Assembly: GCA_028719125.1 (NCBI GenBank)
Contig: JAQUKM010000002.1
Span: forward strand, 17,951 to 53,900
Direction of reading: 5' to 3'
Source: Minisyncoccota bacterium
GTDB lineage: Bacteria; Patescibacteriota; Minisyncoccia; UBA6257
DNA: 35,950 nt
The notes beneath the pieces are model-generated. The model saw only the letters and a list, made by a program, of their open reading frames with translations, was not told where the DNA came from and ran no database searches. Positions 25,702 through 32,685 of this stretch are shown piece after piece (within the stretch, counting starts at the first letter, position 1; each line of letters opens with the position of its first letter). Made by a program: the position numbers and the translations under genes.

Positions 25702-26331
25702 CTATTTTTTCAATGCCGAGAGCGCTTTTTCTGAAAACAACACATATTTATGATTTAGAAGGTCTATTAAGTTAATGTTCTCGCTGTTAATAACTTTAAG
25801 ATAAGGGAGATTTTTCGCAGATCTAAATAATTCTTTCTCTTTTGAATCAACAACAAATAAGATGCTGGGGATTTTTTTCTTTTGACCAAAAACATTTTTA
25901 CAAAAATTATCTATTAAACTTGTCTTTGGTTTTTCTAATTTTGTTTTCTCAATAATTTTCAATTCTCCTTCTCTTAATTTTTGGGACAAAACTATTTGAA
26001 TTGCTTCCTGCTTTGTTTTTTTGTTTATTTTTCTCTTCAGATTGTTATCTTTAGTTTTTGGGCCAAAAGTTACGCCTCCGCCTTTCCAGAGAGGAGAGCG
26101 GATAGAACCGTGGCGCGCTCTGCCAGTTCCTTTTTGAACCCAAGGTTTTCTACCACCGCCTCTTACTTCTCGCCGATTCTTAGTGTAAGCTAATGGTTTT
26201 CGCCCAACACTTAATAAGCTTTTGTATACTTGATAAACTAAATCATTGTTAAACTCCTTACCAAAAATCTCTGAAGATAATTCAATATCTCCTTTTAATT
26301 TTCCTTCTAAATTATAAATTGGCGCTTTCAT
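25702..26331 (-). CDS. rplD: 50S ribosomal protein L4
   Basis: L4 lines the exit tunnel; in E. coli it also represses the S10 operon. The 209 residues contain GKEFNNDLVYQVYKSLLSVGR, the tunnel loop REVRGGGRKPWVQKGTGRARHG, SPLWKGGGVTFGPK, and a C-terminal half with SLIDNFCKNVF, a lysine-rich stretch and LLNHKYVLFSEKAL. Whether it acts on the hairpin upstream of rplC is untested. Confidence 0.97.
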   Translation of the reverse strand: MKAPIYNLEGKLKGDIELSSEIFGKEFNNDLVYQVYKSLLSVGRKPLAYTKNRREVRGGGRKPWVQKGTGRARHGSIRSPLWKGGGVTFGPKTKDNNLKRKINKKTKQEAIQIVLSQKLREGELKIIEKTKLEKPKTSLIDNFCKNVFGQKKKIPSILFVVDSKEKELFRSAKNLPYLKVINSENINLIDLLNHKYVLFSEKALSALKK

Positions 26332-26346
26332 CTTAACTTATAATTT

Positions 26347-26931
26347 TTAACCTATAATTTTTAATAAGGAATTTCTTCTGCCCGGAACGGCTCCTTTTAA
26401 GTAAAGAAGGTTCTTTTCAGGAATAATTTTGACTACCTTAACTCTTTTTAAGGTTATCTGCTCTTGTCCCATTCTTCCCGCCATTTTTTTCCCTTTTACT
26501 ACTCGCTGGATTCCTGTATAACCAATTGACCCTGATGTTCTTAACTGATCTTTCGTTCCGTGAGTCGCGGAACTGCCCTTAAATCCGTGTCTCTTCACAA
26601 CACCTTGAAAACCTTTGCCTTTGCTCTTCCCAATAACCCAGACTTCGTCCCCTTCTTGAAAAACATCAACTTTTATTTCATCTCCTATTTTCAAGGTAAT
26701 TTCTTCCTTCTCGTTTTCTCTCTTTTTATCTAAATTGAATTCCTGAAACCACTGAAATTTATTTTTTTTCTTTCCAAATCCCACCTGAATTGCCTCGTAG
26801 CCATCCTTATCTTTTGTTTTTAATTGAGTAACCTTAACTGGCCCCGCTTCTAAAATAGTTACTGGAATCACTTTCCCCTCTTCATCAAAAATCTGGGACA
26901 TTTCTAATTTTTTAGCTAAAATAATTTTCAT
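26347..26931 (-). CDS. rplC: 50S ribosomal protein L3
   Basis: L3 reaches the peptidyl-transferase centre and starts 50S assembly. The 194 residues have ILAKKLEMSQIFDEEGKVIPVTILEAGP, KGKGFQGVVKRHGFKGSSATHGTKDQLRTSGSIG and KGKKMAGRMGQEQITLKRVKVV. It has a clear AGAGG ribosome binding site 8 bp before the ATG, unlike most genes here, and follows a strong hairpin 29 bp upstream. It therefore looks like the first gene of the S10 unit. Confidence 0.98.
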   Translation of the reverse strand: MKIILAKKLEMSQIFDEEGKVIPVTILEAGPVKVTQLKTKDKDGYEAIQVGFGKKKNKFQWFQEFNLDKKRENEKEEITLKIGDEIKVDVFQEGDEVWVIGKSKGKGFQGVVKRHGFKGSSATHGTKDQLRTSGSIGYTGIQRVVKGKKMAGRMGQEQITLKRVKVVKIIPEKNLLYLKGAVPGRRNSLLKIIG

Positions 26932-26960
26932 ATTTTGAACCTCTTAAATGCTTTTTAACT

Positions 26961-27004
26961 TTTCATTAGAAAAACTGGGCATTAGCCCAGTTTTTCTAAT
27001 GAAA
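26961..27004. terminator. Perfect 20-bp hairpin between rpsJ and rplC
   Basis: Two 20-base arms (26961-26980 and 26985-27004) are exact reverse complements around the four-base loop atta. The core ACTGGGC/GCCCAGT is flanked by A5 before and T5 after on either strand, the layout of a bidirectional intrinsic terminator or attenuator. Beyond the T-tract the pairing continues (CTAATGAAA). It lies 29 bp after the rpsJ stop and 29 bp before the rplC ATG. Confidence 0.85.
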
Positions 27005-27032
27005 TTTCATTCTCAGACTAGGCATTCCGGGC

Positions 27033-27359
27033 TTACATCTTTATTTCTATATCTACTCCCGCTGGCAAATCTAAATTAGTAAGAGCTTCTATTATTTTTT
27101 GGTTTGGATTAGGAATCTCTATTAATCTTTTATGAATTCTGATTTCAAATTGTTCTCGGGCGTCTTTCTTGACAAAAGTAGCCTTATTCACTGTATACCG
27201 ATGAATCTCTGTCGGTAAAGGTATCGGCCCCCTAACTTCGCTTCCATATCTCATCACTGTTTCAATTATCTGCTTACAGGAATTGTCAAGAATCCGATAA
27301 TCGTACCCCTTGATTTTTATTCTGATCTTCTGTTGGGTTTCAACTTTAGAAGCTGGCAC
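27033..27359 (-). CDS. rpsJ: 30S ribosomal protein S10
   Basis: S10 is in the 30S head and, as NusE, also joins NusB and NusG in transcription. The 108 residues include KIRIKIKGYDYRILDNSCKQIIETV, SEVRGPIPLPTEIHRYTV, FEIRIHKRLIEI and LDLPAGVDIEIKM. It follows tuf by only 12 bp and is split from rplC by a terminator-like hairpin, so it appears to belong to the str unit here. Confidence 0.98.
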   Translation of the reverse strand: MPASKVETQQKIRIKIKGYDYRILDNSCKQIIETVMRYGSEVRGPIPLPTEIHRYTVNKATFVKKDAREQFEIRIHKRLIEIPNPNQKIIEALTNLDLPAGVDIEIKM

Positions 27360-27371
27360 AATAATAAAAAA

Positions 27372-28571
27372 TTATTTAATTATCTTTGTTACAACTCCTG
27401 CGCCCACTGTTTTTCCTCCTTCCCGAATGGCAAACCGTGAACCCTCATCGAGGGCTACAGGAACAATCAATTTCACTGTAAACTTAATATTATCTCCCGG
27501 CATTACCATTTCCACACCTTCTGGCAAGGTAACTTCACCAGTCACATCAGCTGTTCGGATATAAAATTGAGGTTTATATCCTGTGAAAAATGGCGTATGT
27601 CTGCCCCCTTCTTCTTTGGCTAAAATATAAACTTCTGCTTCAAACTCAGTATGAGGGGTGATTGATCCTGGTTCCGCTACTACTTGTCCTCTTCTAACCT
27701 CTTCTTTTTTTAATCCTCTTAATAAAATCCCTACATTATCTCCAGCCTGGGTCCCTTCGAGGGATTTATTAAACATTTCTAAACCGGTGGCCACAGTTTT
27801 AATGCTTGGACGATAACCAACAATTTCTACTTCATCATTCAATTTAATTTTTCCTCTTTCTACTCTTCCGGTAGCTACAGTTCCTCTCCCTTCTATGGAA
27901 AAGACATCCTCAATTGGCATTAAAAATGGCTTATCAATATCTCTTTTAGGCTCTGGAAAATATGAGTCAATAGCTTCTAATAAATCAAATATTGGTTTAA
28001 GATTTGGATCATCCACTGATTTAGCTTCCAGCGCCTTTAAAGCAGAGCCCCTTATTATTGGTACATTTTTCCCGTCATATTCATGCTTAGTTAATAATTC
28101 TCTAATTTCTGTCTCTACCAAATCTAATAATTCTTTGTCTTGAACCATATCAACTTTATTCAAGAATACTACTATCGCGGGGACACCAACCTGCCGCGCT
28201 AAAAGAATGTGCTCAAATGTTTGAGGCATTGGCCCATCAGGAGCAGAAACAACCAAAATGGCACCATCCATTTGAGCGGAACCGGTAATCATATTTTTAA
28301 TATAATCAATATGCCCCGGGCAATCTATATGGGCATAATGCCTTTTTTCGGTTTCATATTCAGAATGATGAACATTAATAGTAATTCCTCGCGCTTTCTC
28401 CTCTGGCGCATTATCAATTTCATCAACATTTGCGTCTTTTTTTTCTAGCCCTTTCAAGTAAAGAGCATGCAAAATTGCAGCTGTTAAGGTAGTTTTACCA
28501 TGGTCGATATGACCAATGGTTCCTACATTCATATGAAATTTGTCGCGAACAAATTTTTCTTTTTCTGCCAT
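27372..28571 (-). CDS. tuf: Translation elongation factor Tu
   Basis: It brings aminoacyl-tRNA to the ribosome as a GTP complex. The 399 residues carry GHIDHGKT (20-27), DCPGH (83-87), NKVD (138-141) and SALKA, then the two beta-barrel domains. Family length is about 395. A TTGACA/TAATAT promoter lies ~145-170 bp upstream, giving a ~135-base leader that contains a 14-bp tandem repeat and a CCGCCA palindrome. No Shine-Dalgarno sequence is visible before the ATG. rpsJ follows 12 bp later. Confidence 0.98.
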
Positions 28572-28593: not shown

Positions 28594-28609
28594 TCCGCCA
28601 ACTGACGGA
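28594..28609. repeat. CCGCCA palindrome in the tuf leader
   Basis: TCCGCCAACTGACGGA is a 16-base imperfect palindrome (six of eight pairs) located 23 bp upstream of the tuf ATG. It is related to the elements in the ends of rpsQ and adk. Confidence 0.5.
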
Positions 28610-28632: not shown

Positions 28633-28700
28633 CTTTAAGCTTTGAGTTTTAAGCTTTGAGTTTTAAGCTTTGAGTTTTAAGCTTTGAGCTTTGAGCTTTT
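28633..28700. repeat. 14-bp tandem repeat in the tuf leader
   Basis: Four successive units of ttttaagctttgag (28633-28646 with a first-base change, then 28647-28660, 28661-28674, 28675-28688 exact), followed by a half unit ctttgag and a partial ctttt. Each unit contains the aagctt palindrome. It lies between the putative tuf transcription start and the ATG. Confidence 0.9.
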
Positions 28701-28713
28701 CTATGTATCTACC

Positions 28714-28742
28714 ATATTAAGGCATAATTAATTTATTGTCAA
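28714..28742 (-). promoter_or_regulatory. Candidate tuf promoter
   Basis: Minus strand: GGGG directly before a perfect TTGACA (28742-28737), a 17-bp spacer, and TAATAT (28719-28714, 4/6). The predicted start near 28707 lies about 135 bases before the ATG at 28571. Confidence 0.6.
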
Positions 28743-32067: not shown

Positions 32068-32685
32068 TTACCCCAAATAAATACCGGTAAATAAAGAGAA
32101 TAATAACATTGCTAAAGGCAGAATAACATTGCCGGCAAATATAATAAAAAAGAGTAAAAGAATGGTGCCATAGCGGGAAAGAATCGTTTCAAGATTGCGG
32201 GAAGGAAATAAATAAAATAATATCTTTGATCCGTCTAAAGGAGGAATTGGCACTAAATTAAAAATTGCTAAAATTAAATTAATCCAAACAATAAACATTA
32301 AAAAAGGCATCAAAGATACAAATAGCGAGGTAGCGCTTATAATTCTAATAATAAGGCCGAAAATTAAAGCTAAAAAAAGATTAGCCAAAGGACCGGCAAA
32401 AGCCAATAAAGCAGTGTCTCGTTGCGGGTCTTTAAGTTTCAAAGGATTATAAGGCACTGGCTTGGCCCAGCCGAAAATAAATCCTGAATTCATGAGCACA
32501 AGAATTAGGGGCAAAAAAACCGAACCGATTGGGTCTAAGTGTTTCAGAGGGTTTAAGGTTAACCGTCCCATTTTTTCTGCAGTATCATCTCCAAACTGCA
32601 AAGCGGCTAAGCCGTGTGAAACCTCATGAATAATGACAGAAAATAACAAAATAATGATCTGAAAAACTAAAGGCACTGAAAGCAT
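32068..32685 (-). CDS. Site-2 protease family (M50) membrane metalloprotease
   Basis: An intramembrane zinc protease of 205 residues. The first helix holds HEVSH (H20, E21, H24), the zinc site; the third ligand is the Asp in NLVPIPPLDG (D151). About five hydrophobic segments are visible, and there is no PDZ or CBS domain, so it is the minimal form. Such proteins cleave membrane-bound regulators or signal-peptide remnants; the substrate is unknown. It lies 23 bp after the AMP phosphorylase gene and ends 12 bp before the rpsL -35. Confidence 0.92.
   Translation of the reverse strand: MLSVPLVFQIIILLFSVIIHEVSHGLAALQFGDDTAEKMGRLTLNPLKHLDPIGSVFLPLILVLMNSGFIFGWAKPVPYNPLKLKDPQRDTALLAFAGPLANLFLALIFGLIIRIISATSLFVSLMPFLMFIVWINLILAIFNLVPIPPLDGSKILFYLFPSRNLETILSRYGTILLLFFIIFAGNVILPLAMLLFSLFTGIYLG

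Follow-up and report, generated by a model that had tools for sequence, protein, structure and literature searches.

A conserved terminator-like hairpin before rplC is a candidate attenuator of a ribosomal-protein operon in a Parcubacteria order

A 20-bp hairpin between rpsJ and rplC in a Minisyncoccota genome seems to represent a conserved, switch-like RNA element that many related families carry immediately upstream of rplC. It was found in the window, by which we mean the whole 35,950-nucleotide stretch of DNA analysed here, and we lean towards reading it as the predicted terminator part of a leader RNA, of attenuator type, that belongs to the rplC-rplD... operon. Comparison of related sequences reveals a conserved element that is tied to rplC, and a complementarity between an upstream strand (element P) and the hairpin loop that covaries in relatives. 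An element so placed probably controls how strongly a long series of ribosomal-protein genes is transcribed. We hold as evenly balanced the fuller proposal that this is a novel ribosomal-protein leader RNA of the Parcubacteria order, in which the upstream strand would pair with the apical loop of a terminator and regulate the whole rplC-rplD... operon, acting as an intra-transcript switch in the window's family, which would have lost the rplC promoter. Little is known about the control of ribosome production in ultra-small Patescibacteria and Rfam holds no matching ribosomal-protein leader. A covarying element tied to the largest ribosomal-protein operon offers a concrete, testable feedback site; it also indicates that regulation can remain with rplC even though rpsJ belongs to the tuf unit.

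The gene identities given in the initial annotation (tuf, rpsJ and rplC, all on the minus strand) were confirmed by NCBIfam matches (Table 1). The start of rpsJ 12 bp past the tuf stop was also correct, and a Shine-Dalgarno-like AAGAGG is present 8 nt ahead of the rplC ATG. The hairpin, located on the minus strand between the rpsJ stop (27033) and the rplC start (26931), was indeed a perfect one separating the two genes, with 20 pairs, of which 7 are G-C in the window sequence, and a loop of 4 nt. The 101-nt rpsJ-rplC leader folded at -35.9 kcal/mol, compared with a shuffled mean of -15.9 (z = -6.2; 0/200 shuffles as good). The described distance of 29 bp to both genes held for the rplC start, whereas the rpsJ stop lies 28 bp away, and the A5 and T5 runs, which had been taken as flanks of the hairpin, proved to be part of the 20-bp stem. 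Beyond the full stem, the 3' side on the minus strand reads AGUUAAAAAG and is not U-rich. The form of an intrinsic terminator, namely a G-C stem of at least 5 pairs, a short loop and a U-tract, was found instead in the compact core CUGGGC-UAAU-GCCCAG-UUUUU, whose U-tract is base-paired with A's of the extended stem.

Genome-wide controls were drawn from a sample of about 340 kb of the window's own genome, taken as stretches. In this sample, window included, the hairpin was the third-longest perfect inverted repeat when runs of N were ignored. It occurs once in the 438-kb, 32-contig genome, and this single copy rules out a repeat or mobile palindrome.

Table 1 Features around the window copy of the element.
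Feature	Position	Strand	Description
rplD (L4)	25702..26331	minus	second gene after the element; NCBIfam TIGR03953
rplC (L3)	26347..26931	minus	first gene after the element; NCBIfam TIGR03625
Shine-Dalgarno-like AAGAGG for rplC	26940..26945	minus	sequence, 8 nt before ATG
Hairpin	26961..27004	minus	20 perfect pairs, loop UAAU; contains core CUGGGC-UAAU-GCCCAG-UUUUU
Target Q, GGGCUA	26983..26988	minus	in 5' arm and loop; possible partner of UAGUCU in P
Element P, CUAGUCU	27015..27021	minus	upstream strand partly complementary to hairpin 5' arm and loop
rpsJ (S10)	27033..27359	minus	last gene of the tuf unit; NCBIfam NF001861
tuf (EF-Tu)	27372..28571	minus	NCBIfam TIGR00485
Promoter-like TTGACA-17-TAATAT before tuf	28714..28742	minus	consensus match 10/12; match alone not proof of function

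The idea that S10 had moved to the str unit was partly upheld: tuf was directly upstream of rpsJ at 95 of the 103 loci of the order where rpsJ was found, and rpsJ thus belongs with tuf, but as the norm of the order and not through a move specific to this genome. An S10 gene closing the str cluster is known from cyanobacteria (Sanangelantoni and Tiboni 1993, as cited in PMC1242208), and since a predicted rplCD leader has already been recorded there as well, the layout alone is not new.

We then compared the rplC upstream regions of about 130 genomes of the order, from 27 families, counting hairpins with dG <= -8 that ended within 60 nt of the rplC ATG. Such a hairpin was present in 72/128 leaders (27 families); the window copy, which ends 29 nt before the ATG, is of this type. 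Its frequency was 43/61 in rplC leaders with rpsJ near and 29/67 in those with rpsJ far or absent, compared with 0.9 expected from shuffles in each group, while a hairpin of the same type preceded only 13 of 264 ordinary ORFs of the window's genome, rplC included (5%). The hairpin therefore goes with rplC and not with the end of rpsJ. Moreover, a strong promoter match was found in 52 of the 83 long rpsJ-rplC gaps (expected, 4.1), a good promoter usually lay upstream of the hairpins retained at rplC with rpsJ elsewhere, and some relatives (L016, L032, L071) carried a separate terminator right after rpsJ. Consistently with the initial annotation, rplC was supported as the head of its own unit, with a conserved termination- or attenuation-like element ahead of it across much of the order, in line with the proposed control from rplC onwards. 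For the order as a whole, these comparisons support the idea of attenuation.

Leaders of similar layout and other sequence were also seen before rplC, in families f17 and f24 (L138, L143, L146) and in Uhrbacteria and Magasanikbacteria (L186, L211, L231); complementary pairs in such leaders include GCGUAU with AUACGC in L143 and L146, and CAAGGA with UCCUUG in L138.

In the window's own family, represented by 11 genomes of which 10 had readable rpsJ and rplC, a terminator-like hairpin lay in the rpsJ-rplC gap of all 10, each with the U-tract after the G-C stem retained. The core of the hairpin was near-invariant across genera whose L3 identity to the window goes down to 54%, and its flanks drift. 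Upstream of it, the CUAGU of P was invariant in 7 aligned members, about 25–33 nt before the apex, with only one other invariant column before the hairpin, and a slide control supported the pairing register. In the window, P and Q form 6 contiguous pairs, two of them G-U, with one loop position mismatched; this imperfection arises because the loop reads UAAU, against UAGU or UAGG in most relatives, the change from CUAGU to CUAAU costing one pair. The P-apex helix was 94.6% paired in the family alignment, with little variation in the sequences, and P-loop pairing per genome in this family was not better than in shuffles. Since the stem core and the P-loop pairing hardly vary, covariation is uninformative inside the window's family.

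The distance from hairpin to ATG was only 11–29 nt in 6 of the 10 readable family genomes, so that no promoter fits after the hairpin in these six, and none of the family genomes has a 10/12 promoter match in the 400 nt before rplC. Thus, the hairpin must be at least partly read through, as rplC and the later genes would otherwise be silent, unless they are served by an unrecognised promoter.

The search for compensatory changes, which the initial annotation had suggested and which the near-invariant stem core of the window's family could not satisfy, found strong covariation in related families. In family f27, a typical leader has AGAUUUAGCC, a spacer, and then the hairpin AUAGCC-GGCUAAGUCU-GGCUGUUUU; the apex of this hairpin is complementary to P. 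The P-apex helix was 87.5% paired and the stem 88.5% paired in the f27 alignment, and overall pairing fell to 51–58% when the partners were slid by one column. The covariation score of the P-loop helix and stem in relatives was equalled by 0/500 shuffles and was far lower in slid versions. A covariance model built from f27 alone, with the P helix left out (R1), served to align 28 matches belonging to f27 and to several further families. Leaving aside one terminal pair, 92% of the P-apex pairs, which lie outside the model, were standard in this alignment; both partners had changed in four pairs, and no shuffle reached the observed values. Over 244 whole genomes, R1 gave 24 matches at E<0.001, in f27, f21, f25 and f16, each lying no more than about 300 nt ahead of rplC as judged by position or locus check; rplC was confirmed downstream at the loci checked (both f21 matches, f16 and others). 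Among 384 genomes of the class, matches at E<0.001 were found in f27 only.

R1 gave no match to the window copy (E = 6.2). Outside the window's family, a model of that family (R2) recognised almost no rplC leaders (f3 at E = 0.009), and the best match there was a terminator-like hairpin that is not beside rplC. An automated test of P-loop pairing was significant in f27 and a few others and not significant over all families (Fisher on family medians, p ~0.05–0.09), partly because the most stable hairpin is not always the right one. P-loop swaps between families were not significantly worse than true pairs (p = 0.21), a null result due to the UAG/CUA core common to the families, and no Rfam family reached its gathering score, either in the window or at 20 loci of relatives. 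Judged by position and design, the window copy appears to be an element of this type, and attenuation is the best reading of it. Given the missing R1 score, the near-invariant pairing in the family and the null loop swaps, common descent of the window-family version and the f27 type is no more than plausible.

We propose that P would pair with the hairpin loop and the top of the 5' arm while RNA polymerase is synthesising the hairpin; as P and the loop emerge before the 3' arm, P could hold the apex and so delay the terminator. Such pairing would delay or prevent termination and let transcription continue into rplC, while with P unpaired the hairpin would form and transcription would end just before rplC. 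A full-length P-apex helix and the closed hairpin are probably sterically incompatible. A sensor of ribosome supply would tip the balance, and the most plausible candidate is a ribosomal protein from one of the downstream genes. In the S10 leader of E. coli, L4 promotes termination (PMC10931766), and such a protein may by analogy favour termination here; by this analogy only, the rplD product L4 is a candidate feedback regulator. In many relatives the element belongs to the 5' leader transcribed from a predicted rplC promoter. The window's family has no detectable rplC promoter, and there the element would act inside a tuf-rpsJ-rplC transcript that would most likely start before tuf, and the promoter-like site listed in Table 1 is the nearest good candidate upstream of this whole unit. 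Termination, switching, a ligand and the continued switching of the window copy are what we infer from these features.

The main rival to attenuation is a constitutive partial terminator, which would only lower transcription after tuf-rpsJ, leaving abundant EF-Tu in excess over the downstream ribosomal proteins, and would involve neither switching nor a ligand. The terminator anatomy of the hairpin, its position directly after tuf-rpsJ with no promoter behind it in the family, and the very stable stem of the window copy would all suit such a device. Indeed, a 6-pair antiterminator could hardly compete with a 20-bp stem at equilibrium, which counts against an attenuator, and this extreme stability suggests that the balance in the window is set towards termination, or that the window copy is a near-constant partial terminator. 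We nevertheless consider a purely constitutive element unlikely, because the hairpin accompanies rplC even when rpsJ and tuf are located elsewhere (the 29/67 leaders above), and because a plain terminator need not conserve the sequence of its stem, nor have a covarying complementary strand upstream.

Two further explanations also have to be weighed against the attenuator. The hairpin might act in RNA processing or stability, being cleaved or blocking exonucleases so that the tuf-rpsJ and rplC messages differ in lifetime, or it might act on rplC translation; a long perfect stem between two cistrons of one likely transcript, close to the rplC start, would be well placed for this. However, the U-tract kept in every readable family member is needed by a terminator and not by processing, and P would be left unexplained, which makes this reading quite improbable. 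We give least credence, and very little, to the idea that the str-like unit ends here in an ordinary complete terminator and that rplC is transcribed from a separate, unrecognised promoter lying within rpsJ or in the leader. The good promoter matches between rpsJ and rplC in many relatives (52/83) and the extra terminators right after rpsJ in the three relatives named above would agree with it, but the short hairpin-ATG distances in six of the ten family genomes, with no strong promoter match in the 400 nt upstream, speak against it, and a promoter upstream of the hairpin would leave the hairpin in the rplC leader anyway.

The attenuator-type leader that we favour shares features with several known systems. 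Like the E. coli S10 leader, it would control an L3-L4... operon through a terminator-like leader hairpin before the first gene, with L4 encoded downstream (PMC10931766); the E. coli leader, however, precedes rpsJ as first gene and is long and highly structured, whereas here rpsJ lies upstream of the element, which is a short P-plus-hairpin before rplC. The cyanobacterial rplCD leader (cluster 5, PMC1242208) also belongs to an rplC-led operon with S10 outside it and has a predicted structured leader, but it is a prediction only, from a 345-column alignment, and the likeness to our element is one of description only. A candidate L4 leader in Archaeoglobi (PMC7247131) likewise precedes rplC-rplD-rplW-rplB; that one is archaeal, whereas our element matches no Rfam family. 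The L10(L12)4 and L20 leaders of B. subtilis share the principle of ribosomal-protein feedback on alternative antiterminator and terminator structures (PMC10931766), but they serve other operons and their kink-turn or rRNA-mimic sites were not recognised here. Finally, the G-C-rich stem followed by a U-tract is that of any intrinsic terminator, from which the element differs in its conserved stem sequence, its associated upstream strand, and its place before an essential operon without a later promoter.

Several minor observations were made along the way. In the own-genome sample (loci L034-L053), terminator-like hairpins stood shortly before ORFs that, judged by eye, resemble rplJ (MISKEKKIQIVEDLTAEIQK...), nusA (MLNLKTLRPLIRQIADEKGL...) and trmD (MMRFDILTIFPEVFKNYFDT...), and other translation operons may be attenuated too. 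In several families of the order, the rplC open frame was only about 140–180 aa long and its match to the window's L3 started near residue 80–90, which suggests, from the predicted frames, that the N-terminal half of L3 is shortened or diverged there. The fusA-tuf gap of the window contains a 14-bp tandem repeat (TTTAAGCTTTGAGT; 28634–28699; 4.7 copies, 96% matches) between the promoter-like site and tuf, and a short minus-strand hairpin, UCCGUC-AGUU-GGCGGA (28594–28609), about 22 nt before the tuf start, which is a possible tuf leader structure. Directly upstream of the str genes, a 205-aa ORF (32068–32685) showed weak similarity to RseP-like intramembrane metalloproteases.
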